64,000 nt of DNA, from NCBI RefSeq assembly GCF_014189855.1, contig NZ_BJFN01000001.1, positions 1 through 64,000 on the forward strand, in the 5' to 3' direction. Source of the stretch: Buttiauxella sp. A111. Lineage in GTDB: Bacteria > Pseudomonadota > Gammaproteobacteria > Enterobacterales > Enterobacteriaceae. Position 1 is the stretch's first letter. Each line of letters begins with the position of its first letter. Positions 8,823 to 48,002 of the stretch are shown here, piece after piece. Under the pieces are notes generated by a model. That model was not told the DNA's origin and did no database searches. It saw only the letters and a program-made list of their open reading frames with translations. A program made the translations under genes and the position numbers.

Positions 8823-8838
8823 TGGCATGGTAAATGCT
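8823..8838 (+). promoter_or_regulatory. Sigma-54 promoter of the urea operon
   Basis: TGGCATGGTAAATGCT has GG (8824-8825) and GC (8836-8837) separated by exactly 10 bases, matching the -24/-12 sigma-54 consensus TGGCACG-N4-TTGCW closely. Transcription would start near 8849. This makes the in-frame ATG at 8834 unusable and fixes the first gene's start at 8879. Confidence 0.7.
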
Positions 8839-8878
8839 TTATCCCTCTCATCATGTATACCAGATGGGATGCGAGTTT

Positions 8879-10675: not shown

Positions 10676-10684
10676 GGAGGAATT

Positions 10685-15724: not shown

Positions 15725-15750
15725 AGTCAATGAAACCAAAGGAGACGCCC

Positions 15751-27114: not shown

Positions 27115-27585
27115 TTAAACAGCGTGGCGTTTTTGTATGGAGAGTTGCTCTAATCTCTCTGGCGTCATAATGCTAAGGGCATCGGTCGGGCAAACGCTCA
27201 CACAAGCTGGGCCTTGAGGGTCATGCTGGCACATATCACATTTTAATAGCGCGATTTTTTGTGGCGCTACCGCTTCCCCAACCACATCTACGGCACCGAA
27301 CGGGCAGGCCATAATGCAACTTTTGCACCCGATGCACAGTGCTTCATCCGCTGCAATTATCCCATTTCGCTTACTCAGCGCTCCGGTAGGACAGGCGCTT
27401 GCGCAGGGCGCACTTTCGCACTGGTGACATACGGCAGGGGAACTGATGTCACTCGTTTTGTAAACGCGCAGGCGGGGAGAAAAATCTTTGTGCGCGTCGG
27501 ACTGATGGTTAACCGCACAGCTAACTTCACACGTGCGGCAGCCGATACAGCGCTGTGTCTCAACATGAATGTAAGCTGTTTTCAT
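27115..27585 (-). CDS. ygfS: YgfS-like 4Fe-4S ferredoxin subunit
   Basis: A 156-residue electron-transfer protein with four cysteine clusters typical of the HydN/YgfS/DmsB-type ferredoxins: CIGCRTCEVSC, CHQCESAPCASACP, CIGCKSCIMACP and CDMCQHDPQGPACVSVCP. These bind four [4Fe-4S] clusters. There is no signal peptide, so it is cytoplasmic. Its start overlaps the ygfT stop by 4 bases (ATGA), so it is translationally coupled to ygfT, and the pair likely forms one redox complex. In E. coli the equivalent pair lies in the purine/urate cluster near xdhD and uacT. Confidence 0.87.
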   Translation of the reverse strand: MKTAYIHVETQRCIGCRTCEVSCAVNHQSDAHKDFSPRLRVYKTSDISSPAVCHQCESAPCASACPTGALSKRNGIIAADEALCIGCKSCIMACPFGAVDVVGEAVAPQKIALLKCDMCQHDPQGPACVSVCPTDALSIMTPERLEQLSIQKRHAV

Positions 27586-29528
27586 GATGCTGCCTTCGTC
27601 GCTTTCGCCTGCTCGCAGTCGAGCATATCAATAATATCCGTAGCAGCGCGGCGGCCATCGACCATTGCTGTTACCACCAGATCTGCACCGCGCACGGCAT
27701 CTCCTCCGGCAAAAACGCGTGGGTTTGTGGTCTGTCCTGGGTAGCGAGAGTTTACGCCTATGCGAATTTGTCCCCACTTATCGCATTCTACGTGGCCTTC
27801 TTTCAGCCATGGCATGGCATGAGCCTGGAAACCAAATGCGACAATGAGTGCATCGGCTTCAATAATAAACTCTGAGCCTTTGATGATTTTAGGGCGTCTG
27901 CGTCCACTGGCATCCATTTCGCCAAGTTCGGTCAGTAGCATTTCGATTCCCGCTACTGCCCCTTTTTTATCCAGCACGATGCGTTGCGGCTGGATGTTAA
28001 ACTGAAATTCCACGCCTTCTTCACGTGCATTTTTTACTTCTTTACGTGAGCCAGGCATATTGGCTTCATCACGCCGGTAGGCGCAAGTTACCGCTGTCGC
28101 GCCCTGACGCACGGCGGTTCGCAAGCAATCCATTGCCGTGTCTCCACCACCGAGCACCACCACGCGTTTGCCTTTGAGCGTAACAAACGGGTTTTCAGGA
28201 TCTTCGGCGATATTCATCACATTGCGGGTATTGGCTATCAAATAGGGCAACGCTTCTAGCACGCCTGTTGCATCCTCATTCTCAAGCCCTGCAATCATTG
28301 ACTGATAAGTGCCTGGGGCGATAAACACCGCGTCGTTTTCCTCAATCACCTGGCTGAAGCTGATATCCCGACCAATTTCACAGTTGAGCACGAACTCAAT
28401 GCCCATGCCGGTGAATATTTCTCTGCGCGTTGCTAACACTTGCTTATCAAGTTTGAAGGAGGGGATGCCAAACGTCAGCAGGCCGCCAATTTCTGGATGG
28501 CGATCGTAAACCACCGCTTTCACGCCGTGCCGCGCAAGTACGTCTGCGCAGGCTAATCCCGCCGGGCCCGCGCCAATGATTGCAACGCGTTCTGATCGCT
28601 GCCGAACACCGCTAAGATCCGGGCGCCAACCCGCCTTTAACGCGGTGTCAGTGATGTATTTCTCTATGCACCCAATGGTGACCGATCCGCTGTTGCCCTC
28701 AAGTGTGCAGGAACCCTCGCACAACCGGTCCTGTGGGCAAACGCGCCCACAAACTTCAGGTATGCTGCTGGTTCGGTGAGAAAGCTCCACGGCCTCGTTG
28801 ATACGCCCCTGTTTTGCCAGACGAATAAGTTCCGGGATGGCATTATGCAGAGGGCATGTCCAGCGGCAGTTGGCATGGTCGGCGCATTCCAGACAGCGCT
28901 CACCAGCCTGGCATGTTTGTTCCGGTTTAAAGGGCTGATAGATCTCCTGGAAATGGTGGCGTCGCTCGTTGGCCGGTAATTTATCCGGATCGCTTCTTTT
29001 TGGGCTGAGCAGCAGTTTGTCACGGCCGGTTTGCCGTGCCGCGCGCAGGCCTGGGAGTGTCTCTTGCTGCCGTTTGTGACGAATTTGAGTGAGCTGTTTC
29101 TGGGTGACAAGCTGCAAGGCATTAGTCGGGCAGACGTTGACACAGGCAGGGCCGCTGGCACTGTTTTTTTGTTCACATAAATCACATTTTTGGGCGATGG
29201 AATGGTCGTTGGTCGTTAGGCTTATCACGCCAAACGGGCACGCGAGGATGCAACTTTTACACCCGATACAGTGTTTCTCATCAAGAACGACATGATCATT
29301 TTGATAAACCAGCGCGGCGGTAGGGCAGCTCGCTACACATGGCGCATTATCACATTGATGGCACATAACGGCAGTTGACGCGCTACCCGTATTAACCACC
29401 GTGACGCGAGATTGCAGATGCTGCCCTGGCTCAGGGTAACGTTGTTCATTATGAGCCAACATGCAGGCTATTTCGCAAGATTTGCACCCAATACAATCAC
29501 AGGTATTCGCAATGACAAAACGGTTCAT
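27582..29528 (-). CDS. ygfT: YgfT/AegA-type iron-sulfur flavoprotein oxidoreductase
   Basis: A 648-residue fusion. Residues 1 to ~170 form a four-cluster ferredoxin domain (CIGCKSCEIAC, CHQCDNAPCVASCP, CIGCKSCILACP, CDLCEQ...CVNVCP). The rest is a glutamate-synthase small-subunit-like flavoprotein with its own N-terminal Fe-S segment (CLECADHANCRWTCP), FAD site AIIGAGPAGLACADVL and NAD(P)H site VVVLGGGDTAMDC. E. coli YgfT (also called UacF) and AegA are linked to formate-dependent anaerobic urate degradation. The start at 29528 (MNRFVIAN) has AGGA upstream; the longer frame to 29627 is not supported. It is divergent from the Mo hydroxylase gene. Confidence 0.9.
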   Translation of the reverse strand: MNRFVIANTCDCIGCKSCEIACMLAHNEQRYPEPGQHLQSRVTVVNTGSASTAVMCHQCDNAPCVASCPTAALVYQNDHVVLDEKHCIGCKSCILACPFGVISLTTNDHSIAQKCDLCEQKNSASGPACVNVCPTNALQLVTQKQLTQIRHKRQQETLPGLRAARQTGRDKLLLSPKRSDPDKLPANERRHHFQEIYQPFKPEQTCQAGERCLECADHANCRWTCPLHNAIPELIRLAKQGRINEAVELSHRTSSIPEVCGRVCPQDRLCEGSCTLEGNSGSVTIGCIEKYITDTALKAGWRPDLSGVRQRSERVAIIGAGPAGLACADVLARHGVKAVVYDRHPEIGGLLTFGIPSFKLDKQVLATRREIFTGMGIEFVLNCEIGRDISFSQVIEENDAVFIAPGTYQSMIAGLENEDATGVLEALPYLIANTRNVMNIAEDPENPFVTLKGKRVVVLGGGDTAMDCLRTAVRQGATAVTCAYRRDEANMPGSRKEVKNAREEGVEFQFNIQPQRIVLDKKGAVAGIEMLLTELGEMDASGRRRPKIIKGSEFIIEADALIVAFGFQAHAMPWLKEGHVECDKWGQIRIGVNSRYPGQTTNPRVFAGGDAVRGADLVVTAMVDGRRAATDIIDMLDCEQAKATKAAS

Positions 29529-29678
29529 GTTTTCTTCCTGATTTGCGTTTTGCCACGATGATGCAAAAAAGGTGCACAAAAAATTAAACAACCGAAAGTA
29601 AAAACGATAATGAGAGGTGCTTCGCAAAACTATATTTATTCACCTTTATTAATCGCCAGGTTTTACCACCTGCTTGAT

Positions 29679-29825: not shown

Positions 29826-29841
29826 TGGCACAGCCTTTGCT
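29826..29841 (+). promoter_or_regulatory. Sigma-54 promoter of the Mo hydroxylase operon
   Basis: TGGCACAGCCTTTGCT has GG (29827-29828) and GC (29839-29840) separated by 10 bases, a near-perfect -24/-12 element. Start predicted near 29852, about 46 bases before the ATG at 29898. Confidence 0.8.
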
Positions 29842-29897
29842 TATTACTAACCGTTTAAGATACTCACATTAGTTCTATTCTTATTATGGAGAATGGT

Positions 29898-32800
29898 ATG
29901 GATACAACGCTGGTAGGCACTGAAGTCCCGCGCGTTGACGGTGTAGCAAAAGTCAAAGGAAGCGCTATTTACGGCGATGATATCGTCATGCAGGGTATGC
30001 TTTACGGGGTTTGTCGTTACGCGGATATTGCTGCGGGTCGCCTTGAAACTCTCGATATCAGTGAAGCACAAAAAATCCCCGGTGTGGTGTACATTGCCAC
30101 CGCTAAGGATGTCAAAGGTGTCGAAAAAATAGGCGTCATTATTCCAGACTACCCGCCGATTGCGAAAGATGAAATCGCCTTCCGAGGGGACGTGATTGCG
30201 ATTATTGCGGCTGAAACCTACGAGGCCGCATGCCTGGCGGCTGACAAAATCAGCGCAACCTACACGCAATACACCCCGATAACCGATCCACAAGAAGCCC
30301 TCGCACCGGGTGCACGGTTGATCCATTGCGACAGTGAAAGCAACGTTATCAATCGTCATCATACGGTAAAAGGTGATATTGACGCCGGGTTCGCTGCCTC
30401 TACACATATATTTGAACGTGAATATGAAGTCGGTTTTCAGGAGCACGCATATATAGAACCTGAATCGATCATCAGCTATTTAGATCCTAACGAACAAATT
30501 ATTACTATTGCAGGTTCTATTCAGAATGCGCACCGCGTTCGTGGCCTTGTCGCTAAATATCTTGGATTGCCGCAGTCTAAGGTTAACGTTAAGCGTTCCG
30601 TGCTGGGTGGTTCATTTGGCGGCAAGGATGATATTATCGATCATCTTGCCTGCCGTGCGGCATTATTAACTACTCTGACCGGGCGCCCGGTTAAATTCAC
30701 ATATAATCGCGAACAGTCTATGCGCGAAAGTTATAAGCGCCATCCTTATAAGATGAAATACAAAATAGGGTTGGATGACGATGCGCGTATTCAGGCGATA
30801 AAAATAGATATCATTGCGGATGGCGGCAGTTACGCAGGCCAAACTATTTTTGTGACCTGGCGGAGTTCAGTGCAGGCCGCAGGCCCTTATAATATCCCCA
30901 ACGTCAGGGTTGATGTCACAGGCGTCTATACCAACAACAATTACACTTCCGCATACCGTGGCTACGGTGCGCCGCAGGTCATTTTTGCCAACGAATCGCT
31001 GATGGATGAAGTGGCTGCCACCTTTAAAATTTCGCCGGTAGAACTTCGCCGTCGAAATGTGCTGAAGCAAAACGATACCAGCATGGCCGGGCAGGTCTTT
31101 AGCGAACACACCGTTTCTGCCGAAGAGGTACTGGACCGGGCGCTGAACAGTGCAGAGTTCTGTGCCAAACGGGATCACTACCAGCGTCTAAACGCCCAAA
31201 ACAATCCAGTAAAATACGGTATTGGCCTGGCTTTAAGCCACCGTGGTTGCTCTCTTGGCGCCGAAGGGCTGGATGCCTCATCCGCGCTGATTCAAATAAA
31301 CGCTGATTGTAGCCTTAACATCTCCACCTCTGTGTCAGAAAACGGCCAGGGGTTGCAAACGACCATGTCGTTGATTGCTGCTGAAGCCTTCGGTCTTCCG
31401 CTTGAACAAGTAATGTTTACCGATCCCGCGACGGCAATGATCGCCGATGGTGGCTCAACGGTTGCATCGCGCGGCACGCTGATGGGAGGGCAGGCAGTGC
31501 TGAGTGCTGCCAATAAGCTGAAGTGCAGAATGGTAAAGGTGGTCGGCAAAGCTTTAAATGCCAGCTCAGTGGATGAACTGAATTGGGAAAACGGTGAGGT
31601 CTATAACCGGCAGCAGCCGGACCTGCGTCTTTCATTTAATGATGTCGTTGGTAAAACCAAAGCTGCGGGCGAAAATCTTTCTGCCTATGGCTGGCACGTG
31701 GCCCCGGACATTCATTGGGATGAGCATAAAGGCTCCGGTAGCCCGTACTTCACTTGGGTCTACGGCTGCCAGATTGCAGATGTCGCAGTGGACACGCGCA
31801 CTGGCAAAATAACACTCAACCACATCACTGCGGTGCATGATGTAGGTAAAGTGATCAATCGCGTTGGCATTGAAGGGCAAGTCTACGGCGGCGTGGTTCA
31901 AGGGATGATTGGCTACGGCATGCTGGAAGATTTCAATATTGCCCATGGTGAAGTGAAATCTGAAAACTTTGATACCTACCTGCTGCCAACCATCAAAGAT
32001 GTTCCACCGATAACGGTTATTACCGTGGAAAACCACGATAAAGCCGGTCCTTATGGCGCGAAAGTGATTGGTGAGCCCGTGCTGGAACTGGGGGCGGCTG
32101 CGTTGAACAACGCGGTGAGCTTTGCACTGGATCGCTGGAATCGCCAGATCCCACTCACCCTTGAGCAAGTTCGCCTGGGCTACAACCTGAAAAAACCAGA
32201 GCGCCAAAGTGAACTTCAGGGCGAGCAAGGTGAGAAAAAACAAACGCTACGGCTCAACAATCTCACCGTCTGTACACCGTCTTCACTCAATGATGCCCTG
32301 CAAGCCATGCAAGAACCCGGCGCAATGGCGATTGCCGGGGGGACTGATCAACTGGTGCAGGCGAGGATGCAGGTCAGCAATCTTAAACTGGTGAATATTT
32401 CAGGCCTGAAAGAACTTAGCCAGATTGTAGAAGCTGACGGCGGCTTAGTGATTGGTGCTGCGGTCTGCTTTAGCGATCTTGTCGCCCATCCAGCCGTTCG
32501 CGAACGTTATCCCGTGCTGGTCACCGCCTGTCGCACTATAGGCTCGCTGCAATTGCGAAACCGCGCAACCATTGGAGGCAATATTGTCAATGCCGCACCA
32601 TGTGCGGACTCAGTGCCTCCGTTGATCATTCTGGATGCTGAGGTGGAGCTGCAATCCTCATCAGGAATTCGCTATCTACCGTTAAGTCACTTTATAGAAG
32701 CGGGTTATCGCACAAGTCTGCAACCTGGAGAATTGCTGACGCGGGTGCTCATTCCCAAACCACAGCCTGAAATTCAGCAGTATCGCTATCTGCAATTGGG

Positions 32801-33110
32801 GCGCCGAAACGCGCTGAACATTACTCGCCAGAGTTTGACTGGGCAATTCAGCCTGGATAGCCAAGGTAAGCTGGCGTTTTGCCGACTGGTGGATGGCGCG
32901 CTGTTCAGTAAGCCACAGCGGTTGTACGAAGTCGAAAATTGCCTCATGGGTAAAGTGCTTTCAGCACAGACCATCGAAGATGCGGCGGAAGCCCTTAATC
33001 AGAAGATGGAGGCTGCGATAGGCAAGCGTTGGTCAGCGGCATACAAAATGCCGGTCTATCTCGACATGTTCCGCCAGATGTTGGGCGAGTTGCTGAACGA
33101 AAGAAAGTGA
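29898..33110 (+). CDS. Molybdenum hydroxylase with fused Mo and FAD domains (xanthine dehydrogenase family)
   Basis: A 1070-residue protein. Residues 1 to ~750 are the molybdopterin-binding large subunit of xanthine dehydrogenase/aldehyde oxidase enzymes: PRVDGVAKVKGSAIYGDD, GGSFGGKDD, AYRGYGAPQ and GPYGAKVIGEP, the last near the catalytic glutamate (GEPVLELGAAA). After a charged linker, residues ~787-1070 are the FAD subunit, with AIAGGTDQLVQAR and TIGSLQLRNRATIGGNIVNAAPCADS. In E. coli XdhA/XdhB these are separate proteins. The likely reaction is hydroxylation of a purine such as hypoxanthine or xanthine to urate. The ATG at 29898 has GGAG 6 bases upstream. The [2Fe-2S] subunit follows 13 bases later. 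Confidence 0.88.
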   Translation: MDTTLVGTEVPRVDGVAKVKGSAIYGDDIVMQGMLYGVCRYADIAAGRLETLDISEAQKIPGVVYIATAKDVKGVEKIGVIIPDYPPIAKDEIAFRGDVIAIIAAETYEAACLAADKISATYTQYTPITDPQEALAPGARLIHCDSESNVINRHHTVKGDIDAGFAASTHIFEREYEVGFQEHAYIEPESIISYLDPNEQIITIAGSIQNAHRVRGLVAKYLGLPQSKVNVKRSVLGGSFGGKDDIIDHLACRAALLTTLTGRPVKFTYNREQSMRESYKRHPYKMKYKIGLDDDARIQAIKIDIIADGGSYAGQTIFVTWRSSVQAAGPYNIPNVRVDVTGVYTNNNYTSAYRGYGAPQVIFANESLMDEVAATFKISPVELRRRNVLKQNDTSMAGQVFSEHTVSAEEVLDRALNSAEFCAKRDHYQRLNAQNNPVKYGIGLALSHRGCSLGAEGLDASSALIQINADCSLNISTSVSENGQGLQTTMSLIAAEAFGLPLEQVMFTDPATAMIADGGSTVASRGTLMGGQAVLSAANKLKCRMVKVVGKALNASSVDELNWENGEVYNRQQPDLRLSFNDVVGKTKAAGENLSAYGWHVAPDIHWDEHKGSGSPYFTWVYGCQIADVAVDTRTGKITLNHITAVHDVGKVINRVGIEGQVYGGVVQGMIGYGMLEDFNIAHGEVKSENFDTYLLPTIKDVPPITVITVENHDKAGPYGAKVIGEPVLELGAAALNNAVSFALDRWNRQIPLTLEQVRLGYNLKKPERQSELQGEQGEKKQTLRLNNLTVCTPSSLNDALQAMQEPGAMAIAGGTDQLVQARMQVSNLKLVNISGLKELSQIVEADGGLVIGAAVCFSDLVAHPAVRERYPVLVTACRTIGSLQLRNRATIGGNIVNAAPCADSVPPLIILDAEVELQSSSGIRYLPLSHFIEAGYRTSLQPGELLTRVLIPKPQPEIQQYRYLQLGRRNALNITRQSLTGQFSLDSQGKLAFCRLVDGALFSKPQRLYEVENCLMGKVLSAQTIEDAAEALNQKMEAAIGKRWSAAYKMPVYLDMFRQMLGELLNERK

Positions 33111-33123
33111 GCAGGATAAAAAA

Positions 33124-33588
33124 ATGAAAACGATAGAGCTGAAAGTTAACGGTATCCGTGTGAGCCGTGAAGTGAGCGATAACCGCCGTTTAGTTGATTT
33201 TTTACGTGAGGATCTGCGTCTCACCGGCACCAAAGAAGGATGTTCGGTGGGTGAGTGTGGAGCCTGCACCATCATTATGAATGGTAAAGCCGTCTGTTCG
33301 TGTCTGGTGCTGGCGGTGCAGTGTGAGGGGGCTGAAATCTCGACCGTCGAAGCGCTACATCATGAACCTATAGGCTTAAAACTACAGAATGCCTTCGTAC
33401 GCCACGGGGGGACGCAGTGTGGATACTGCACCCCGGGAATACTGATGAGCAGCAAAGCGTTGCTCGACAGTAACCCTAATCCTTCAGACGATGAAATCTG
33501 TGAAGCGCTTGAAGGCAATCTGTGTCGCTGTACGGGTTACCACCCCGTGATTAAATCTATAAAAGCCGTCCTGAAGTCTGTTGGATAA
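33124..33588 (+). CDS. [2Fe-2S] subunit of the Mo hydroxylase
   Basis: A 154-residue small subunit with both clusters of the family. The plant-type ferredoxin domain has GCSVGECGACT with a further cysteine in the AVCSC segment. The helical C-terminal domain has QCGYCTPG and NLCRCTGYHP. It passes electrons from the Mo centre to FAD. It corresponds to E. coli XdhC (159 aa) in role. It begins 13 bases after the fused Mo/FAD gene with no promoter between, so the two form the enzyme together. A terminator-like hairpin follows, then mocA. Confidence 0.92.
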   Translation: MKTIELKVNGIRVSREVSDNRRLVDFLREDLRLTGTKEGCSVGECGACTIIMNGKAVCSCLVLAVQCEGAEISTVEALHHEPIGLKLQNAFVRHGGTQCGYCTPGILMSSKALLDSNPNPSDDEICEALEGNLCRCTGYHPVIKSIKAVLKSVG

Positions 33589-33629: not shown

Positions 33630-34226
33630 ATGGAAGACAAACCAGAGTGCGTTATGTTGGCGGCAGGGCTTTCGAGCAGAATGGGCGCGTGGAAAATGAT
33701 GCTCCCATGGGACGAGGGCACAGTACTGGATAGCGCGATTGAACACGCTCTAGGGTTTTGTGAACGAGTGATTCTGGTGACGGGCCATCGGGCGGATGAA
33801 CTTCATGTTCGTTATGGCAATCATCCCGGCGTGACACTGGCCTACAATCCCGATTTTCAGCAAGGAATGTTCTCTTCAGTGCAATGCGGAATCGCTCAGA
33901 CGCACGGACAACATTTTTTCCTGGCATTAGGTGATATGCCGACGATCAGTCCTGCGGTTTATGCCACGCTGTGGGAATCACGTGGGCCCTATTGCTGTGT
34001 GCCCGAATTTGCAAGTTACCGTGGCCATCCTGCGTTATTGCCGGGTTCTATGCGCGGAGCCATTCTCGCAACCCCAGCCAACGGGATGCTAAAGTCGTTA
34101 ATGCAAACTTTTGGTCGGCGGAGTATCGAGGTGGATGAACCGGCTATCCATGAAGATGTGGACACGCCGGTACAGTATCAAAAGCTTGCAGCCGAATGGT
34201 GCAAGCCAGAAAAAGTATACGGTTAG
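33630..34226 (+). CDS. mocA: MocA molybdenum cofactor cytidylyltransferase
   Basis: A 198-residue nucleotidyltransferase of the GlmU/MobA fold that joins CTP to Mo-molybdopterin to make the cytosine dinucleotide cofactor used by xanthine dehydrogenase-family enzymes. The signature [18 protein letters not shown] is near the N-terminus (residues ~9-26), with [10 protein letters not shown] carrying the metal-binding aspartate. It matches E. coli MocA/YgfJ (192 aa). CGAGGTG serves as ribosome binding site. It is convergent with the ygeV-type gene: the two stops overlap by 4 bases. Its presence beside the Mo hydroxylase supports an MCD-type cofactor. Confidence 0.92.
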
Positions 34227-36019
34227 AGGCTATTGCTTTTCGCATCCAGCGCTTCTAGCCCATATTTCTTAATTTTACGGTATAACGTGGCGATGCCGAT
34301 TCCCAACTCTTCGGCAATCAGGCGCTTGTTTGTTTGGCGAATCAACGCCTCTTCGATCAGCGTCTTTTCAATGGATTTCAGATTTGCACCATTACTGGCT
34401 GTATTTTCCTGGGTATGGGTATGAACAGGAAGCCTGACGGGAGCTGAGTGAAAAGAGGGGGGGAGCATCGCACGATCGATAACCGAGCCCGTAGGGACAA
34501 TATTGACCAAATACTCCATCAGGTTACTCAATTCGCGTACATTTCCAGGCCAGCGATAATGCAAAAATGCATTAATGACTTCCTCGCTAACGCCTGGGTA
34601 GGCCCGGCCAATACGTTGTGTGTGCAAATTAAGGAAAAAGTGCATTAGCATCTCTATATCACCCCGTCGTTCACGTAGGGGAGGTAAGGGAACCGGGATC
34701 ACATTCAGGCGGTAAAAGAGATCTTCACGGAACTGGCCATCCTCTATTTTTTGATCCAGTTTCTGATTGGTGGCGGAAATAACGCGAATATCAACTTTAA
34801 TATATTGACTGGAGCCTACAGGCTGTAGTTCGCGCGTTTCTAACACACGCAATAGCTTGGCCTGTAATATAAGTGGCATGTCGCCAATTTCATCCAGAAA
34901 TAATGTCCCACCGTTAGCGGACTGAATAAGGCCTATTTTCCCTCCCGGTGCGGCACCGGTAAATGCTCCTTTTGTGTAGCCAAACAACTCGCTTTCGAGC
35001 AGGTTTTCGGGAATGGCGGCGCAATTTATGGCAATAAAAGGATTTGCCTGACGTGGGCTTAGGCGATGAATTGCTCTGGCAACTACTTCTTTTCCCGTAC
35101 CACTCTCTCCTGTCACCATAATACTCGAAGGGCTATTCGCCACCTGAGTAATCAGGCGTTTTACTACCTGCATTTGGCATGAATCACCGATAACGTGTTC
35201 GATATTTGTTTCTTTGTTTTGTTCGTTTTCGTTGTCTTTAAGATGAGACTGGTGGAAAGCAAATAACAATAATCGGTGATTTTCAATAAGGTGAAGTTGG
35301 CAGGTGACGGTTTTATGGAGCTGGTTACATTGCAAGCGATACTGAACATAGTCGAATTCAGCATTTACAGAGCTAGTCAGGGGTTGTAGATCCATTTCCC
35401 GTCCAACCAGATGATCTTCTGTAATTGCCAGGTATTTCAGCGCATTTTCGTTACAGCGTACAACACGGTTTTTATCATCAAGAACGACCACCCCCTGATC
35501 CATTGCCATGATAAGCCTTGAGAAAAGGCGAGTATCGCTTTCGTTTATCACATTGGTTTTGGCCAGGTTATTGATAACCAATGTTGAAATATGCTTGATG
35601 TATTGGATAAACATCTGACTGTTATCACACAAACGTTGATGCTGATCCTGGTTGGTAGCAATCAGGCTAATGACCCCCAGACAGACATTGTCATGCAGAA
35701 CAGGAACGCCGATAAACGCCAGTTCATGGCAACCGTCGCGGCCTTTACACTCTGAACAAAGTGGGTCTAGTTTCGAGTGGAGAACCACTTTTTCTTTCCC
35801 GGTTTCAATAACGGAACGCAACAACTGGTTATTCGTTTCGGGAATTTCACCCAGCCCGCTGCCGTATATTCCTGTTCCGGCTACGCGAACGAAATGATTA
35901 TCAATAACCTCAACTTCCAGCAATAAAACCCGGTGTAATAATTGGGTGAAATGAGCCACCGTGGGCTGTACCCGCATTAATGTTCCCATGTTTTTATGGG
36001 CTGCTTTCTTCTCTGACAT
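34223..36019 (-). CDS. ygeV: YgeV-type sigma-54-dependent activator
   Basis: A 598-residue enhancer-binding protein. Residues ~10-165 are a GAF-like sensor with a cysteine group [12 protein letters not shown] that could hold a metal or cluster. A PAS domain follows (~180-285). The AAA+ domain (~285-520) has Walker A GESGTGKE near residue 300, GAFTGA (sigma-54 contact) near 350 and Walker [12 protein letters not shown]. The C-terminal Fis-type HTH includes [23 protein letters not shown]. It matches E. coli YgeV (UacR), linked to urate-responsive control. I choose ATG 36019; the extension to 36094 lacks support. It probably drives the three sigma-54 promoters of this island. Confidence 0.9.
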
Positions 36020-36238
36020 AAGTGATACCTGTATTTCAGGGTTGAACTCGTCACATTTCAGGTTCCGCCAGGGGAATCTGAACTTTTGATACATATCACA
36101 TTGAGAAACTTTTTTTATTTATCATTTTGAGCGGGTTTTTAAGCTCCATTACCACTGTGCTCCACCTTTAATTCATCATGTCTTCTACCATTCAGTTTTA
36201 TTTCTTCTCAATGAATCAGCAATTTCTTTGGATTACAT

Positions 36239-36376: not shown

Positions 36377-37564
36377 ATGAACTCAATTGCAGGGTTAATT
36401 GAAACAATTAATGGACTACCGTCAGATCTTCACAGTAAAGATTTTCTACTTACCTGGGAGCAGAAACACAGCGAATTGCAGCAGGTGCTGAGCATTGCTG
36501 AGGCGCTGAAGGCTATGCGGGCAGAAAATATGGCGACCCGCGTGTTTCAAAGTGGCCTGGGGATTTCCGTTTTCCGTGATAACTCCACCAGAACGCGTTT
36601 CTCTTATGCCTCGGCGCTGAATTTGCTAGGCCTGGCGCAGCAAGACCTGGATGAGGGTAAATCTCAAATTGCTCACGGTGAAACGGTACGTGAAACCGCC
36701 AATATGATCTCCTTCTGCGCTGATGCCATCGGCATTCGTGACGACATGTATCTTGGCGCAGGCAATGCCTATATGCGCGAAGTGGGTGAAGCACTTGATG
36801 ATGGCTTTGCACAAGGCGTGCTGCCGCAGCGTCCGGCGCTGATCAACCTGCAATGCGACATTGACCATCCTACTCAGTCAATGGCGGATCTTGCCTGGCT
36901 GAAAGAGCATTTTGGTGGGTTAGATAAGCTCAAAGGCAAGAAAATCGCGATGACATGGGCGTATTCGCCTAGCTACGGCAAACCACTTTCAGTTCCTCAG
37001 GGCATTATCGGTCTGATGACTCGCTTCGGTATGGACGTCACCCTGGCTCACCCGGAAGGCTATGACCTGATACCCGACGTGCTGGACGTTGCGCGTAAGA
37101 ACGCAACTGAAAGCGGTGGTAGCTTCCGCCAGGTGAGTTCCATGGAAGAAGCCTTTAGCGGTGCGGATATCGTTTATCCCAAATCCTGGGCGCCATGGCA
37201 GGTCATGCAGACACGCACCGAGCTTCTGTATGCCAATGATGACCAGGGTCTTAAAGACCTCGAAAAATCGTGCCTGCAACAAAACGCTCTGCACAAAGGC
37301 TGGCACTGCACGGAAGAGCTAATGAAGCGTACGAAAGGGGGCAAGGCGCTGTATATGCACTGTCTGCCAGCAGACATTAGCAGCGTGTCCTGTGAGGCCG
37401 GCGAAGTAGAAGAAAGTGTGTTTGAACGCTATCGCATTGCCACTTACAAAGAGGCGAGCTGGAAGCCATACATCATCGCGGCCATGATTCTGGCAAGAAA
37501 ATACGCACGCCCTGGTGACGTTCTGGCGCAACTGTTGCGTGAAGCACAGCCACGAATCAAATAA
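36377..37564 (+). CDS. ygeW: YgeW knotted carbamoyltransferase
   Basis: A 395-residue carbamoyltransferase matching E. coli YgeW (396 aa) closely. The carbamoyl-phosphate loop SVFRDNSTRTRFSYASALNLLG (STRTR core) and the family's MHCLPAD motif are present, along with the knot-region sequence YSPSYGKPLSVPQG. The natural acceptor was long unknown; in the anaerobic urate/purine route it is thought to act on a ureido intermediate, feeding carbamoyl phosphate to the carbamate kinase encoded downstream. It is the first gene after the sigma-54 promoter and heads a five-gene unit. Confidence 0.94.
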   Translation: MNSIAGLIETINGLPSDLHSKDFLLTWEQKHSELQQVLSIAEALKAMRAENMATRVFQSGLGISVFRDNSTRTRFSYASALNLLGLAQQDLDEGKSQIAHGETVRETANMISFCADAIGIRDDMYLGAGNAYMREVGEALDDGFAQGVLPQRPALINLQCDIDHPTQSMADLAWLKEHFGGLDKLKGKKIAMTWAYSPSYGKPLSVPQGIIGLMTRFGMDVTLAHPEGYDLIPDVLDVARKNATESGGSFRQVSSMEEAFSGADIVYPKSWAPWQVMQTRTELLYANDDQGLKDLEKSCLQQNALHKGWHCTEELMKRTKGGKALYMHCLPADISSVSCEAGEVEESVFERYRIATYKEASWKPYIIAAMILARKYARPGDVLAQLLREAQPRIK

Positions 37565-37588: not shown

Positions 37589-38803
37589 ATGTCTCGGTTT
37601 TCGATTCCGATGAAGATTGCTGATAATTCCCGGTTTAACGGCGAAAGTATGGCGCTGTTTTCCCGTGAGCCTGCCTTGCAGGCTAAGGCTTTTCATCAGC
37701 AATTACCTGGTTATCAACCCACGCCCTTGCATTCGCTCAGTGGCTTTGCCAACCAGCTCGGCGTAGCGAACGTGTGGGTAAAAGACGAGTCCCAACGTTT
37801 CGGTTTGAACGCGTTCAAAATGCTAGGCGGAGCGTACGCCATCGCTCGCCTGTACTGCGAAAAATACCACCTCGACATTCAACACTTTTCTTTCGAAAAG
37901 TGCCGAAATGCCAAACAAGAAAAAATGACCTTTGCTACCACAACTGACGGTAACCACGGTCGTGGGGTGGCCTGGGCAGCAAAAGAGCTTGGCCAACATG
38001 CTGTGATTTACATGCCTAAGGGCTCTTCCCAGGAACGCGTCGATCACATCACCCGCCTGGGTGCTGAATGCATCGTCACTGACATGAACTATGACGATAC
38101 GGTACGTCTGACTATGCGTACTGCTGCCGAACACGGCTGGGAAGTCGTGCAGGACACTGCATGGGAAGGTTATACGCAGATCCCAACCTGGATCATGCAA
38201 GGTTACGCTACGCTTGCCGTCGAAGCGGTAGAGCAAATGCCTCAGCCCCCCACACATGTCTTTTTGCAGGCCGGTGTCGGGGCTATGGCGGCTGGGGTAT
38301 TAGGCTATCTGGTCGATGTGTATGGCGCGCAAGCGCTGCATAGCGTCATCGTAGAGCCCGAACGTGCCGATTGCATTTATCGTTCAGGATGTAGTGGAAC
38401 CCTAAGCGTAGTAGGCGGCGAAATGAACACCATTATGGCGGGACTGGCCTGCGGTGAGCCTAATCCACTCGGGTGGCCATTACTGCGCAACTGTTCACAC
38501 CAGTTCATCTCGTGCGACGACCGTGTAGCCGCTTTGGGCATGCGCGTTTTGGGTAATCCGCTTCTTGGTGATGCTGCAATCATCTCCGGAGAATCAGGCG
38601 CAGTCACTATGGGCGTATTGGCTGCGGTGATGTTCCACCCAGAAAAAAATAGCCTCATGCAACGACTCGGTCTCAATGAACAATCCCGCGTTCTGCTGAT
38701 TAGCACCGAAGGAGACACCGACGTTCAGCATTACCGGGAAGTCGTATGGGAAGGGAAACACAGTATCTCAGGTTGCAACAATCAGGAGCATCAAAATGAC
38801 TAA
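37589..38803 (+). CDS. ygeX: YgeX 2,3-diaminopropionate ammonia-lyase
   Basis: A 404-residue PLP fold-type II enzyme matching E. coli YgeX/DpaL (398 aa). The PLP lysine is Lys77 in [15 protein letters not shown]. Other landmarks are [32 protein letters not shown] and the glycine loop [13 protein letters not shown]. It splits 2,3-diaminopropionate to pyruvate and two ammonia. In the anaerobic urate pathway this yields carbon and nitrogen from purine-derived diaminopropionate. AAGGAG lies upstream. Its stop overlaps the ygeY start (ATG at 38796) by 8 bases. Confidence 0.94.
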
Positions 38804-40010
38804 AATTCCATTCAGTGACATCGTCGCGAAAGCCGAACATTACAAAGCTGATATGACCCGTTTTTTGCGCGATATGATTGCTATCCCAAGTGAAAGTTGT
38901 GATGAAAAACGCGTCGTTCACCGCATTAAAGAAGAAATGGAAAAGGTGGGCTTCGACAAAGTTGAAATTGACCCAATGGGCAATATCCTCGGTTATATCG
39001 GCCATGGGCCACACTTGATTGCCATGGATGCGCACATCGACACCGTTGGTATCGGCAATATCAAAAACTGGGACTTCGATCCGTACAAAGGGATGGAAGA
39101 TGACGAAATTATCGGCGGTCGAGGTTCATCAGACCAGGAAGGTGGAATGGCTTCCATGGTTTACGCCGGGAAAATCATTAAAGATCTGGGGCTGGAAGGC
39201 GACTACACCCTGTTGGTCACCGGGACCGTGCAGGAGGAAGACTGCGACGGTCTGTGCTGGCAGTACATTATTGAACAATCGAAAATTCGCCCGGAATTTG
39301 TCGTCAGTACCGAACCGACAGACTGCCAGATTTACCGCGGGCAACGCGGACGCATGGAGATTCGTGTTGATGTGCACGGGGTGAGCTGCCATGGTTCCGC
39401 ACCAGAGCGTGGCGACAACGCTATCTTCAAAATGGGGCCGATTCTTGGCGAGTTGCAGGAACTGAATAACCACCTTAAATACGACGACTTCCTCGGCAAA
39501 GGCACGCTCACGGTTTCAGAAATATTTTTCACCTCACCAAGTCGTTGCGCCGTTGCAGACAGCTGTGCCGTGTCCATTGACCGTCGCCTGACCTGGGGCG
39601 AAAGCTGGGAAAACGCGTTAGAAGAGATCCGCGCTCTGCCTGCCGTGAAGGCCGCGAAAGCCACCGTTAGCATGTACAACTACGAACGCCCGGCCTGGAC
39701 TGGCCTTGTCTATCCTACCGAATGCTATTTCCCAACCTGGAAAGTGGAAGAAGACCATATTACGGTCAAAACCCTCAGCCAGGCCTATCAGGGATTATTC
39801 AATAAAGATCCTGTGGTAGATAAATGGACCTTCTCGACGAATGGCGTTTCTATTATGGGCCGCCACGGCATTCCGGTTATTGGCTTCGGTCCAGGCAAAG
39901 AGCCAGAAGCGCATGCCCCGAATGAAAAAACCTGGAAAGCCCACCTGGTGACTTGTGCTGCCATGTACGCCGCGATTCCTCTGATGTATCTGGCCGAGCG
40001 TAAGCATTAA
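38796..40010 (+). CDS. ygeY: YgeY family M20 metallohydrolase
   Basis: A 404-residue M20-type amidohydrolase, the counterpart of E. coli YgeY (403 aa). Metal ligands can be seen in MDAHIDTVG and [16 protein letters not shown] holds the catalytic glutamates, and HAPNEKTW holds a C-terminal ligand histidine. The dimerisation segment with [15 protein letters not shown] is present. It hydrolyses a carbamoyl- or acyl-amino acid and, from its operon, probably acts between the carbamoyltransferase and the ammonia-lyase. Overlap with ygeX indicates coupled translation. Confidence 0.92.
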
Positions 40011-40024
40011 ACAAGAAGTGCCAT

Positions 40025-40047
40025 AGCGGGTGGGTTTCTCACCCGCT
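40025..40047 (+). terminator. Hairpin between ygeY and hyuA
   Basis: AGCGGGTG (40025-40032) pairs with CACCCGCT (40040-40047), loop of 7, followed by TTATGTTT. A weak terminator or mRNA-stabilising hairpin inside the operon; hyuA starts 31 bases further on without an evident promoter. Confidence 0.5.
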
Positions 40048-40077
40048 TTATGTTTATCCAACACGGCAGGGTTAAAG

Positions 40078-41469
40078 ATGAAATGCTTAATCCAGGGCGG
40101 GACCGTTGTAGATGAGTGGGGCGAGTATCGCCAGGATTTGCTGCTGGAAGATGGCAAGATAGCCAGGCGCGAAAGCCATATTACGCCTGACGATGACACA
40201 GAGATCATCGACGCCTCCGGTTGCCTGGTCATGCCCGGTGGCATTGACGTACATACCCATTTTAATATCGATGTCGGTCTGGCTCGCAGCTGCGATGATT
40301 TTTTTACCGGCACCCGTGCAGCCGCCTGCGGTGGGACCACCACCATTATCGATCACATGGGTTTTGGCCCCACAGGCTGTAGCCTTCATCATCAACTGGA
40401 AAAGTACCACGAGTACGCAGCAGGAAAAGCCGTCATTGATTATGCTTTTCATGGCGTTATCCAGCATATCGACGCGGATATTCTCAGTGAAATGGCCTCA
40501 ATGGTGGTGGATGAAGGCATCAGCAGCTTTAAAATTTATCTCACCTACCAGTACAAACTTGACGACACCGCCATCTTAAAAGCGCTCAGTGAACTGAAGC
40601 TCGTCGGCGCGCTGGTCACCGTTCATCCGGAAAATGATGCGGCCATTCGCTACCGTGTTGAGCAATTTGTGCAGGAAGGGAAAACACAAGCTATCTGGCA
40701 CGCCCGTAGTAGGCCAATTGCCTGCGAAACGGAGGCAATTTCGCGAGTCGTTCACCTTGCGCAACTGGCAGGAAACGCACCGCTTTATATTGTCCATCTG
40801 TCAAACGGTGCAGGGCTGGATGTATTGCGTGCTGCTCGCCATAAAGGGCAGCCTGTTTGGGTTGAAACCTGCCCACAATATCTCCTGCTGGATGAAGATG
40901 AATACCGCCAGCCGGATGCTCTGAAGTTTATTCTCAGCCCACCTTTGCGTGATAAAGCCCAGCAGAAACAGCTTTGGGAGGGGATTTTCGATGGAGCCAT
41001 CGACACTATCGCCACCGACCATTGCACCTTCCCATATTCCCAGCGCGTTGCGCTTTCCAACGGTAATTTCACTCGCTGTCCAAACGGTTTGCCCGGAGTT
41101 GAAAACCGTATGTCGCTGATGTTTACCGAGGGCGTTGCCACGGGTCGGATTACCCCGTCTCGTTTTGTCGAACTCTGTAGCAGCAACCCAGCCAAATTAT
41201 TTGGCCTGTGGCCGCAAAAAGGCTCACTTCAGGAGGGATCCGACGCGGACATCGTATTGTTTGACCCGAACAGGACCGGCATCGTTCGCCATGAATCCCT
41301 GCACGACAACGTGGATTACTCACCCTATGAAGGAATGGCATTGCGTGGCATTCCCGTCGTGACACTGTCACGCGGTAAGGTAGTGTGGTGCGACGGTGTG
41401 TTCACAGGTTATGCGGGGCATGGACGTTTTTTACATCGTAAGCCATTTACCACAAGGAATTTAAAATGA
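40078..41469 (+). CDS. hyuA: HyuA D-phenylhydantoinase-type cyclic amidohydrolase
   Basis: A 463-residue dihydropyrimidinase-family enzyme matching E. coli HyuA/YgeZ. The binuclear metal site has HTH in GGIDVHTHFN, the carboxylated lysine in SSFKIYLTYQ, further histidines in LVTVHPEN and PLYIVHLS, and the aspartate in IATDHCTFPY. It opens hydantoin-like rings; in this operon the likely substrate is a hydantoin-like or ring intermediate of urate breakdown. The start is the ATG at 40078 (MKCLIQGG); a longer frame from 40030 runs through the hairpin. Its stop overlaps the next gene by 4 bases. Confidence 0.92.
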   Translation: MKCLIQGGTVVDEWGEYRQDLLLEDGKIARRESHITPDDDTEIIDASGCLVMPGGIDVHTHFNIDVGLARSCDDFFTGTRAAACGGTTTIIDHMGFGPTGCSLHHQLEKYHEYAAGKAVIDYAFHGVIQHIDADILSEMASMVVDEGISSFKIYLTYQYKLDDTAILKALSELKLVGALVTVHPENDAAIRYRVEQFVQEGKTQAIWHARSRPIACETEAISRVVHLAQLAGNAPLYIVHLSNGAGLDVLRAARHKGQPVWVETCPQYLLLDEDEYRQPDALKFILSPPLRDKAQQKQLWEGIFDGAIDTIATDHCTFPYSQRVALSNGNFTRCPNGLPGVENRMSLMFTEGVATGRITPSRFVELCSSNPAKLFGLWPQKGSLQEGSDADIVLFDPNRTGIVRHESLHDNVDYSPYEGMALRGIPVVTLSRGKVVWCDGVFTGYAGHGRFLHRKPFTTRNLK

Positions 41470-42398
41470 AAAAGAGAATTGTACTGGCGCTGGGTGGCAA
41501 TGCCCTCGGTGAGGATCTACAGCAGCAGATGCACGCCGTCAAAATTACCGCAAAGGCGATTGTCGATTTGATTGCCCAGGGGCATGAACTGGTCATTACT
41601 CACGGGAACGGCCCACAGGTAGGTATGATTCATCAGGCTTTTGAAGCGGCGGCTTTTCAGCATGGAAGCCAGACATTACCCATGTCAGTGTGCGTGGCAC
41701 TAAGCCAGGGATACATCGGCTACGATCTGCAAAATGCTTTACGTGAAGAGTTGTTGAACAGATGTATCAACAAACCGGTGACCACGCTGATAACTCAGGT
41801 GCTGGTAGATAAACATGACCCGGCCTTTATTGAACCGAGCAAACCCATTGGCTCGTTCCACAGCAAAAGTGAAGCCGAGAAACTGATGGTGCAGGGCGTG
41901 GACGTTCGCGAAGATTCTGGTCGCGGATGGCGACGCGTTGTGGCCTCTCCGAAACCGAAGGATATTATCGAGAAAGATTCGGTGAAAGCGCTTCTGGATG
42001 CCGGTCACGTGGCGATTACCGTCGGCGGCGGTGGTATTCCGGTTGTCAGCCAGGGCAACCATTTAAAAGGTGCCAGCGCAGTCATTGATAAAGACTGGGC
42101 AAGCGCGGTTCTGGCTGAAATGATTGATGCCGATATGCTGATCATTCTGACTGCGGTGGAAAAAGTAGCCGTTAACTTTAATCGCCCTGACCAGAAGTGG
42201 CTGGACAACATTACCGTTGACGACGCTAAGCGTTATATCGAACAGGATCAGTTTGCGAAAGGGTCCATGTTGCCAAAAGTGGAAGCCGCTATGCACTTTT
42301 CCGCATCGGCCCCCGGGCGTGAAACGCTTATTACGCTTCTTGAAAAAGCCAGTGACGGGATTGCCGGTAAGACCGGCACCCGCTTGCGCAATATGTAG
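41466..42398 (+). CDS. yqeA: YqeA carbamate kinase
   Basis: A 310-residue amino-acid-kinase-fold enzyme of the carbamate kinase family, the same length as E. coli YqeA. Landmarks are VLALGGNALG, THGNGPQVGM, GRGWRRVVASPKPKDI, TVGGGGIPVV and KGSMLPKVEAA. It transfers phosphate from carbamoyl phosphate to ADP, making ATP, CO2 and ammonia, so it can harvest energy from the YgeW product. ATGA overlap with hyuA couples the two. Last gene of the ygeW unit; the XdhC-family gene is convergent 5 bases downstream. Confidence 0.92.
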   Translation: MKKRIVLALGGNALGEDLQQQMHAVKITAKAIVDLIAQGHELVITHGNGPQVGMIHQAFEAAAFQHGSQTLPMSVCVALSQGYIGYDLQNALREELLNRCINKPVTTLITQVLVDKHDPAFIEPSKPIGSFHSKSEAEKLMVQGVDVREDSGRGWRRVVASPKPKDIIEKDSVKALLDAGHVAITVGGGGIPVVSQGNHLKGASAVIDKDWASAVLAEMIDADMLIILTAVEKVAVNFNRPDQKWLDNITVDDAKRYIEQDQFAKGSMLPKVEAAMHFSASAPGRETLITLLEKASDGIAGKTGTRLRNM

Positions 42399-42403
42399 AT
42401 TGA

Positions 42404-43240
42404 TTACATGGCGACGCTGGTCGCCATTTTTACCTCATCAGCATGAATAGCCTCAGGCTTGCCAGACGCCATTTTTTTAGCCCCTTTTATGGCCAGCAAC
42501 AATTCTGCGAGCACACTGATCGCAATTTCTTGTGGCGTTTCGGCGCCAATATCTAACCCCACAGGCGAACGCAAACGCGCGATCTGCTCCTGCGCCACAC
42601 CTTCCTGCTGTAATTGTTGTTTAAAGTGATGCACTTTGCGGCTGCTGGCCAGCAGGCCAAGAAAACGGGCAGGGCGCGGTAATAATGCGTCGAGGGATTC
42701 TTTGTCCTGGTGATTGGTGGCGATAATCACCAGACTTTTATCATCCAGAGGCAGGTCAGATATCAAAGTGGTAAACGAATTTCCATAGATGCGATGACAG
42801 GCTGCTGGCATGTCAGGGTGATCAAGGCTCTCCTGCCAGGTATCCAGCACATGGACATCAAAATTCAGAGGTACTGCTGCCTGGGCTATCGCGCGGTTAA
42901 CATGGCCCCCGCCGACAAGTATCAACGACGGTCGCCTGGGATAAACCGCGATATGGACTGTCATCGCGCCACCACAGTCAGAACCTACGGCGTGCTCACC
43001 CTGTCGCGCCATTCTGCCTTGAAAAACGCAGGAACACTCGTCGGCCAGCGCCTGCCGCGTTCTATCCAGCACCAACCGTTCCATCATGCCGCCGCCAATA
43101 GTACCGATGGTTTCACCCGTTTCGGTGACCAGCATACTTGCCGAATGGCGTGGCGTGGAGCCTCTGGATTCAATAATGTGGATCAGCGCAAAACTGCGGT
43201 TTTTGTTTTCACAAAGGCATGCCTGCTGAAAAATACTCAT
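42404..43240 (-). CDS. XdhC-family Mo hydroxylase maturation factor
   Basis: A 278-residue protein with the two parts of the XdhC/CoxI family. An N-terminal domain has HIIESRGSTPRHSASMLV, TIGGGMMERLV and SDCGGAMTVHIAVYP. A C-terminal Rossmann domain has LILVGGGHVNRAIAQAA and LRSPVGLDIGAETPQEIAISVLAEL. These proteins bind molybdenum cofactor, assist its sulfuration and insert it into xanthine dehydrogenase-type enzymes. It is much shorter than E. coli YqeB (541 aa), which shares the family. The ATG at 43240 has GGGAG 5 bases upstream. It is unrelated to the [2Fe-2S] subunit also named XdhC in E. coli. Confidence 0.87.
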   Translation of the reverse strand: MSIFQQACLCENKNRSFALIHIIESRGSTPRHSASMLVTETGETIGTIGGGMMERLVLDRTRQALADECSCVFQGRMARQGEHAVGSDCGGAMTVHIAVYPRRPSLILVGGGHVNRAIAQAAVPLNFDVHVLDTWQESLDHPDMPAACHRIYGNSFTTLISDLPLDDKSLVIIATNHQDKESLDALLPRPARFLGLLASSRKVHHFKQQLQQEGVAQEQIARLRSPVGLDIGAETPQEIAISVLAELLLAIKGAKKMASGKPEAIHADEVKMATSVAM

Positions 43241-43550
43241 GACGACTCCCGTTTCAGAAACCATTTGTTTTCATTCATGCAATAACTATGCCCTGCAATA
43301 AATAGCGTTATTTCAGCGCGATGACTCTCTTAACGTCTCATTACGATAAAACATTTCTTAATTTGAAATTAAACGTTCGATAAATATCAAAGTGGCATTT
43401 GAATTTATGCCATATCCACCCAGTCATGCGATCCCCTTCACATATTCTGCACTGCGCGGCAAAGATGCTGCGCGGTGGCGCGGTTGTTGCTTCTGCTGTT
43501 GTAAAAAATGCCAGTAAGGCGAAAGGCCACATTATTAAGGAGCAATGACT
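43241..43550. promoter_or_regulatory. Divergent control region upstream of ygfK
   Basis: This 310-base region between the XdhC-family gene and ygfK has no gene. It holds a perfect palindrome TTAATTTGAAATTAA at 43358-43372, adjoining ACGTTCGAT, which loosely echoes the ATTAAAAC-TCGAT repeat upstream of ygeW. It also holds a sigma-54 promoter at 43476-43491. Confidence 0.5.
43476..43491 (+). promoter_or_regulatory. Sigma-54 promoter of ygfK-ssnA-permease
   Basis: TGGCGCGGTTGTTGCT has GG (43477-43478) and GC (43489-43490) separated by 10 bases and fits TGGCACG-N4-TTGCW at all but one conserved base. Predicted start near 43502; the ygfK ATG follows about 49 bases later. Confidence 0.75.
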
Positions 43551-46500: not shown

Positions 46501-46655
46501 AATGTCTGGTTCGCCACCAGCAGGAGATCTGGAATCTGTCTGTTGAGGCCGATGGCTCATTAAGCGATGTTCCTGCGGAACTTGCAGAAGTCAGCGCCAT
46601 TATCACCCACATCAAACAGCATCACAGCTATCTGCTGGGTAGCGTGGAGGAATAA
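43551..46655 (+). CDS. ygfK: YgfK iron-sulfur/flavin oxidoreductase
   Basis: A 1034-residue protein very similar to E. coli YgfK (1032 aa). Residues ~1-420 resemble dihydroorotate/dihydropyrimidine dehydrogenase barrels (FGETCDTPVGPAAGPHTQL, NPTLLGYSRVREILDGCGFD). Next come an Fe-S segment with CYVAPCVTACAIHQDIPEY and CDHQCQYNC, and a GltD-like flavoprotein with FAD site VAVIGAGPAGLAAGYFLA (~553) and NAD(P)H site VVGAGNTAMDCARAA. A C-terminal ferredoxin follows, with cysteine clusters at ~900-915 and ~940-950. It is probably a reductase of urate or a urate-derived intermediate in the anaerobic route. ATG 43551 lies 8 bases after AAGGAG; E. coli also begins at this residue. Confidence 0.92.
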   Translation: MCDIMRPIPFSELLQRVFAEYEANRSIFGIPESEFYPRDPRKQLTIFGETCDTPVGPAAGPHTQLAQNIITSWLTGGSFIELKTVQILDRLELEKPCIDAEDEAFNTEWSTEFTLLKAWDEYAKAWFALWLLEELFSPRHGIRGRSFIFNMSVGYNLDGIKQPAMQKFIDEMIDASNNAKFASYRQQLKNLLSSDAFISLMGLEARREELTKLPERIPATMVKGVTLSTMHGCPPDEIESICSYMLNEKKLHTFVKLNPTLLGYSRVREILDGCGFDYIGLKEESFAHDLKLDQALEMLQRLMAQGKTVGREFGVKLTNTLGTINHKGHLPGEEMYMSGRALYPLSINVAALLSNAFQGQLPISYSGGASQFNIADIFATGIHPITMATDLLKPGGYLRLAKCAEILATGDGWERHSVDVAKLEKLAADALTQKWTQKEWKSKEQINAGGPLPLTDCYVAPCVTACAIHQDIPEYLRLAGEGRYADALELIYQRNALPAITGHICDHQCQYNCTRLDYENSLNIRAIKDLVVAKGSAEYRSRWHKPAGSGEKHPVAVIGAGPAGLAAGYFLARAGHKVTLFEREANAGGVVKNIVPQFRIPEEKICHDIDFVAAHGVEFVFNCEPNLTVEKLKAKGFHYVCIGIGAESNNGIPLEGDSRNIYKSFDFLRAFNQGKALNVGRHVAVVGAGNTAMDCARAALRIPGVESATIVYRRSKNEMPAWPEEVEEAVEEGVQFRFLANPERLENGQLQVRVMKLGEPDEKGRRKPVATDQTEILAVDTLISAIGESPNYTLLSRMGVPLDDKGYPRLNSQTLETTAPGVFLIGDVQSGPLSIVSAIAGARKATDAILAQENIRSDKGDKRCLNNDPVATYARKGRVAVKQIEADAGDAFAQQEAQRCLECNYVCAKCVDVCPNRANVSISIPGFKDRFQTLHLDAYCNECGNCSQFCPWQGKPYKDKFTIFSLENDFINSTNCGFMWRNNECLVRHQQEIWNLSVEADGSLSDVPAELAEVSAIITHIKQHHSYLLGSVEE

Positions 46656-47983: not shown

Positions 47984-48002
47984 GTCACACGGAGAGAACA
48001 TA

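Follow-up and report, generated by a model that had tools for sequence, protein, structure and literature searches.

The enzymes of the reductive urate pathway have been worked out only recently (PMC12507026, 2025), and a commentary names the obtaining of an active first enzyme as a critical requirement (PMC12990295). In Escherichia coli, XdhD-YgfM uses NADH to reduce urate to yanthine, and xanthine is oxidised by XdhABC (PMC12507026); the commentary describes XdhAC of C. sporogenes as a urate reductase (PMC12990295), the reaction also proposed for the enzyme analysed here. The E. coli first-step enzyme is apparently selenium-linked. The first 64,000 nucleotides of contig NZ_BJFN01000001.1 of Buttiauxella sp. 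A111 (assembly GCF_014189855.1; hereafter, the window) contain a reductive urate cluster in which XdhD-YgfM is missing and a molybdenum (Mo) hydroxylase of different architecture is present, with the Mo and flavin adenine dinucleotide (FAD) domains fused in one chain and the [2Fe-2S] subunit encoded separately. On sequence and gene-content evidence, it is fairly probable that this fusion is a urate-to-yanthine (2,8-dioxopurine) reductase that replaces XdhD-YgfM and is selenium-independent in the subclade of the window.

The open reading frame (ORF) of the fusion extends over 29886-33110 on the plus strand (1074 codons, no internal stops). Translation probably starts at 29898, as the original prediction had set, yielding 1070 amino acids, because the sequence GGAG at 29888-29891 lies six bases upstream and because the annotated start of the homologue on a Salmonella plasmid is the matching residue. 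The two genes of the hydroxylase are:

29898..33110, plus strand: fused Mo-FAD hydroxylase (ORF, Pfam and structure match; start from the Shine-Dalgarno sequence and the annotated relative)
33124..33588, plus strand: [2Fe-2S] subunit (Fer2, Fer2_2; Pfam and NCBIfam), 154 amino acids, in its own ORF

In the 1070-residue form, the Mo domains occupy residues ~21-755, the linker ~753-787 and the FAD domains ~789-1064. The Pfam matches, numbered on the 1074-residue form, are Ald_Xan_dh_C (25-128), MoCoBD_1 (148-392) and MoCoBD_2 (419-707) in the Mo part and FAD_binding_5 (793-959) and CO_deh_flav_C (990-1068) in the FAD part; all matches of the two proteins except Fer2_3 are above the cut-off. The AlphaFold model of the fusion is of moderate confidence (mean predicted local distance difference test score 74.5, below 50 in the linker, 757-791), with residues ~10-759 matching solved Mo subunits and 788-1074 a solved FAD subunit; the Mo-domain fold aligns with 1fo4 at Z 34.0 and a root-mean-square deviation of 3.4 over 673 residues. 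With Mo-binding domains, an FAD domain, a [2Fe-2S] subunit and the matching fold, the protein belongs to the molybdenum hydroxylase (xanthine oxidase) superfamily. The original prediction of one chain with N-terminal Mo and C-terminal FAD domains is borne out by the intact ORF and by a domain search that placed both Pfam sets in it, and the separate [2Fe-2S] subunit is likewise confirmed.

A survey of other genomes for the same fusion, which had been proposed with that prediction, was performed by scanning two peptide patterns over a collection of 84,980 species, with the result of at least 74 loci; together with one Salmonella plasmid, 75 related loci were analysed. The same fused ORF (at least 1000 amino acids) is found in 64 of the 75 (63 of the 74 pattern-scan loci plus the conjugative Salmonella plasmid), and all 64 fused rows share the linker motif LKKPxRQSE. 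In the six remote loci (L110-L115), Mo and FAD are unfused, and the remaining five loci, all close relatives, hold a damaged or truncated copy: L082, L096 and L106 are broken away from the junction of the Mo and FAD parts, L098 ends with its contig, and in L104 a gap spans the junction, with several neighbouring genes broken as well. The intact orthologues and the common linker rule out a sequencing error, that is, a stop or frameshift at the junction, the doubt that had been attached to the prediction.

The cluster around the fusion encodes YgfK, SsnA, HyuA, YgeW, YgeY and YgeX, all with scores above the curated cut-offs. The E. coli urate cluster additionally holds xdhABC, full-length yqeB, yqeC, ygfM and xdhD; in the window, xdhABC, xdhD-ygfM, yqeC and one half of yqeB are absent from the cluster, and the XdhD model (TIGR03313) has no match at E 1e-100 in the window genome. 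Because yanthine must come from elsewhere in a YgfK cluster that lacks XdhD, gene content points to the fusion as the consistent candidate for its source.

This replacement is apparent across the family of the window. Among 392 genomes, YgfK is matched at E 1e-200 in 69 (68 above the cut-off), of which 46 have the fusion and 36 XdhD: 32 the fusion only, 22 XdhD only, 14 both and one neither. Thus, 68 of the 69 hold XdhD or the fusion, and in the sole genome with neither (G601), the ygfK match is truncated and contains a stop. The fusion and XdhD avoid each other in these genomes (Fisher p about 1e-7, uncorrected for relatedness), and the tally by genus (37 genera) is 21 with the fusion only, 6 with XdhD only, 4 with both and 6 mixed. 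Among the 46 fusion copies, those of G582, G657 and G621 are broken or incomplete, and that of G483 lies across two contigs. Outside the family, XdhD is present in five more YgfK genomes, and G253, discussed below, has neither enzyme.

The principal rival explanation is that the fusion is the xanthine dehydrogenase (XDH) of the cluster, converting (hypo)xanthine to urate in the role of XdhABC, with urate dehydroxylation carried out by an unrecognised enzyme or bypassed. Under this explanation, which we consider unlikely, 32 YgfK clusters would have no known first enzyme, even though XdhD or the fusion is present in all but one of the YgfK genomes. Furthermore, 11 of the 32 fusion-only genomes also encode a separate canonical-type XDH (recognised by 30-32% matches in open frames of about 790-915 amino acids; fragments in G483 that may be a canonical XDH were not counted), and therefore, xanthine oxidation is already covered there. 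What keeps the rival alive is an XDH-like pocket and the genomic position of the fusion, the place and gene order being those of E. coli xdhABC-ygeV-ygeW.

For the wider genome searches, 50 of the 74 loci were taken, excluding remote, broken and cut loci, most metagenome-assembled genomes (MAGs) and some near relatives; without L054 and L076, and with five further genomes added, these amount to 53 entries, or 52 genomes, given that L091 and G031, which share contig and position, are apparently one genome and L091 was left out of the later counts. The completeness of the genomes reached via loci is unstated, so that absences may be assembly gaps. YgfK is present in 53 of the 53 entries, XdhD in 16 (absent from 37) and YqeC in 21. 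Of the 52 genomes, 19 have a canonical XDH above the cut-off, 21 have TIGR03309 and 42 have SelD above the cut-off; in 22, among them that of Raoultella terrigena NBRC 14941 (L045 in G062), the XDH model matches the fusion alone at E 1e-60.

TIGR03309 is the selenium marker described by Haft and Self (PMC2276186); within E. coli YqeB it spans residues 271-526, and the XdhC-like protein of the window has no counterpart of this half. TIGR03309 and TIGR03172 occur in one and the same set of 21 genomes, whose fusions are at most 63% identical to that of the window. The other 31, with fusions at least 66% identical, make up the searched part of the window's subclade, and neither marker was found in any of them, including the window genome, which accordingly lacks the TIGR03309 marker of the selenium-dependent Mo hydroxylase system. 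In the tree, this subclade is a single supported branch of 13 rows (99/100), all but L054 covered by the marker searches. SelD is below the cut-off in 10 of the 31 subclade genomes and in none of the 21 TIGR03309 genomes; the ten below it all encode full-length YgfK and a canonical XDH.

The 26 fusions sampled for the tree group in a single clade (100/100) that excludes XdhA and XdhD. Orthology with either is rejected by this tree, which is midpoint-rooted and carries a long-branch warning, several long branches meeting in it, including that of the next enzyme to join. This enzyme, from the Hydrothermota MAG L111 (99/96), has Mo, FAD and iron-sulfur (FeS) genes in the same order as the fusion locus but with Mo (758 amino acids) and FAD (288 amino acids) encoded separately, and is 43% identical to the fusion over the Mo part; its neighbours include PreA, SsnA and YgeY, which supports a role in the urate pathway. 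For the Anaerolineae relatives L112, L113 and L115, urate-set genes beyond the hydroxylase subunits were not matched at E 1e-20 in the available stretches, and these loci were not used as support. No NCBIfam model reaches its cut-off with the fused protein: the bit scores are 431.0 (curated cut-off 916) for NF007426 (XdhA, E. coli type), 438.3 (849.5) for TIGR02965 (canonical XDH large subunit), 431.6 (994.55) for TIGR03194 (4-hydroxybenzoyl-CoA reductase, HcrA) and 248.3 (1101.9) for TIGR03313, the fused chain having no FeS domain.

XDH consists of an FeS-FAD chain and a Mo chain in bacteria and of a single FeS-FAD-Mo chain in animals. E. coli XdhD-YgfM, like the fusion, is a Mo hydroxylase of a reductive urate cluster with YgfK and SsnA and has FAD and [2Fe-2S] partners, but XdhD joins FeS to Mo and leaves FAD separate, and is only about 26-28% identical to the fusion. 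XdhABC shares with the fusion the gene position and the Mo-FAD-FeS order before ygeV-ygeW but comprises three proteins, with about 29% identity.

All 65 fusions share seven invariant residues: Gln213, Asp248, Trp325, Arg326, Gly458, Glu460 and Glu730. In the alignment with bovine XDH, they correspond, respectively, to Gln767, Glu802, Glu879, Arg880, Thr1010, the residue two places beyond Thr1010, and the catalytic Glu1261. The catalytic Glu of the superfamily is thus present in all fusions. The XdhA and XdhD sequences compared have Gln at the position of Asp248 and Ala or Asn at that of Arg326 (Gln and Ala in E. coli XdhA). Canonical bacterial and mammalian XDH shares the Mo-domain fold, Arg326 and Glu730 with the fusion, but its Phe1009/Thr1010 pair is replaced in the fusion by Leu, Ile or Met followed by Gly, and the fusion's loop at this position (GAEG, with Glu460) differs from those of XdhA, XdhD and canonical XDH alike.

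The fusion is probably a distinct purine hydroxylase, given its separate clade, the lack of an NCBIfam model at cut-off, the invariant pocket of its own and the replacement of XdhD-YgfM in the urate cluster. To this extent, the original prediction probably holds; the reason given for it, the unusual Mo-FAD architecture, does not. Joining the neighbouring xdhA and xdhB yields Mo-FAD, so that architecture alone implies no new substrate; the domain order copies that of adjacent genes, as in E. coli xdhA-xdhB-xdhC and in L111, and was rejected as a sign of a new substrate.

Several observations weigh against the fusion being a selenium-independent urate reductase. It occupies the xdhABC position of the E. 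coli cluster, not that of xdhD; its family scores prefer XDH models to XdhD (468 versus 248 bits), which also favors the XDH alternative, as do the Gln, Asp, Arg and catalytic Glu that resemble the XDH pocket pattern; this Arg, with Asp at the position of the XDH Glu, is unlike XdhD, and Glu606 of XdhD sits in an insertion missing from the fusion. Against the XDH alternative stands the tree, where the fusion is an ortholog of neither XdhA nor canonical XDH. Furthermore, the window genome itself has SelD, and five fusion genomes outside the subclade (G077, G079, G081, G082, G099), in which the XDH model at E 1e-60 matches nothing but the fusion, retain YqeB/YqeC without XdhD; in these five, the fusion may be selenium-dependent. 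One genome of the order sample, G253, has YgfK and neither XdhD nor the fusion. A different Mo hydroxylase, with an open frame of 895 amino acids, lies about 3 kb from its ygfK (G253:C1:2348064-2355944) and may be a third way of carrying out the first step.

Finally, 14 of the 69 YgfK genomes carry both the fusion and XdhD, and therefore, the fusion does something extra or is redundant there. Along with these genomes, each of which has a further XdhA-sized match (XdhA shown only for G011), the distinctive GAEG loop would fit an enzyme acting on another purine or analogue (e.g. hypoxanthine, adenine or 8-oxopurines) as a side feed into the cluster. This is improbable: it would leave the fusion-only genomes without a known first enzyme, and the cluster is otherwise a urate cluster. 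Equally doubtful is a single selenium-free fused enzyme that replaces both XdhABC and XdhD-YgfM, oxidising xanthine at C8 to urate and reducing urate at C6 to yanthine; such an enzyme would isomerise xanthine to yanthine at no net redox cost.

If the fusion is a urate reductase, the Mo-FAD chain and its small [2Fe-2S] subunit would run reductively in the anaerobic urate pathway: the FAD would be reduced by NADH or by an AegA/formate-linked donor, electrons would pass from FAD to the Mo cofactor via the [2Fe-2S] centres, urate would be dehydroxylated at C6 to yanthine, and yanthine would then be processed by YgfK and SsnA. The fusion would stand in for XdhD-YgfM, in the window's subclade without selenium-linked maturation factors. 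The Mo hydroxylase family includes a member working reductively, 4-hydroxybenzoyl-CoA reductase (HcrABC).

The fusion gene is preceded by a sigma-54-type site:

29826..29841, plus strand: sigma-54 promoter consensus TGGCACNNNNNTTGCW, matched exactly, upstream of the fusion gene

Sites with one mismatch precede ygeW and ygfK. A sigma-54-type score of at least 10/11 was obtained for 37 of 64 upstream regions of fusion genes, which come from related and hence not independent loci, compared with 3 of 660 control regions; the Vibrio, Photobacterium, Aliivibrio and Shewanella loci, and L052, L091 and L102 of the window's subclade, score 8 or less. The total number of sites in the whole window is not significant (6 versus 3.7 expected; 14 of 100 shuffles reach 6), and what counts is position and conservation across loci. 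The site before the fusion gene, beside a ygeV-like activator, was counted in favor of a role in the urate pathway.

The other genes of the cluster are:

27115..27585, minus strand: YgfS-like ferredoxin-type protein
27582..29627, minus strand: AegA-type iron-sulfur flavoprotein (NF009408, 1006.8 bits, cut-off 1003); the gene likely starts inside the ORF, at about 29528
33630..34226, plus strand: MocA-like molybdenum cofactor cytidylyltransferase (TIGR03310, 166.9 bits, under the cut-off of 186.45)
34223..36094, minus strand: YgeV-like sigma-54-dependent activator (53% to E. coli YgeV)
36377..37564, plus strand: YgeW carbamoyltransferase
37589..38803, plus strand: YgeX / DpaL diaminopropionate ammonia-lyase
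38796..40010, plus strand: YgeY hydrolase
40030..41469, plus strand: HyuA hydantoinase
41466..42398, plus strand: YqeA carbamate kinase
42404..43264, minus strand: XdhC-like insertion factor, matching the N-terminal half of YqeB, without the half that carries the TIGR03309 selenium marker
43545..46655, plus strand: YgfK, yanthine reductase homologue (TIGR03315, 1557 bits, cut-off 835)
46658..47983, plus strand: SsnA aminohydrolase
47946..49469, plus strand: purine permease of the NCS2 family (43% to UacT)

The window also holds genes for a urea amidolyase (allophanate hydrolase and urea carboxylase) at 8834-14305, at a distance of about 13 kb from the urate cluster, and after them, at 15730-17316, a gene for a permease of the type that transports branched-chain amino acids. 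The possibility that all FdhF proteins encoded near the fusion are free of selenium was rejected: codon 140 is TGA (selenocysteine) in 16 loci (15 read as codons, L104 from translation only) and Cys in 9, with two further matches ending before this codon. The loci concerned are L025, L031, L033 and others between L043 and L104, with TGA in some lineages and Cys in loci of the Erwinia, Pantoea and Rahnella types.

The at least 74 loci listed are mostly from Enterobacterales (fusions in Klebsiella, Raoultella, Serratia, Kosakonia, Erwinia and others), along with Vibrionaceae, Shewanella, two Rhodoferax MAGs and the six remote loci. The closest fusion among the matches listed is that of Cedecea sulfonylureivorans (87%), and none was found in the ten other genomes searched of the window's genus (G001-G010); a congener, G005, has XdhD. 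Therefore, the gene may be readily moved or lost, and the urate cluster of the window may have been acquired from outside the genus. A fusion-type urate cluster with fdhF resides on a conjugative IncF plasmid of Salmonella enterica (L025, CP053580.1 11423-54635), and the fusion is also present on a second Salmonella plasmid, CP054717.1. As to E. coli, the best 20 of 5,125 matches in a near-mode DNA search were to ygeW only, a search that a diverged fusion copy could escape. The Mo gene of L110, an Elusimicrobia MAG, carries a TGA in frame (2232-2234) at the first Gly of the GGSFGGK motif of its relatives, reflecting error, decay or recoding.

No paper on this fusion was found in the open-access literature, searched mostly at the level of titles and opening lines of abstracts, and the word ‘fused’ is absent from the text of PMC12507026. 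The 2025 survey counted any PF01315 homologue (PMC12507026), and such counting would not distinguish the fusion from XdhD; surveys of XdhD orthologs would miss the fusion, if it is indeed a urate reductase. Should this be the case, many Enterobacterales would rely on another enzyme for the first step of the pathway, and within one large subclade this enzyme would be independent of selenium. The exact split between the genomes with and without the selenium markers would then be a natural pair for asking whether the proposed selenium factors serve these hydroxylases.

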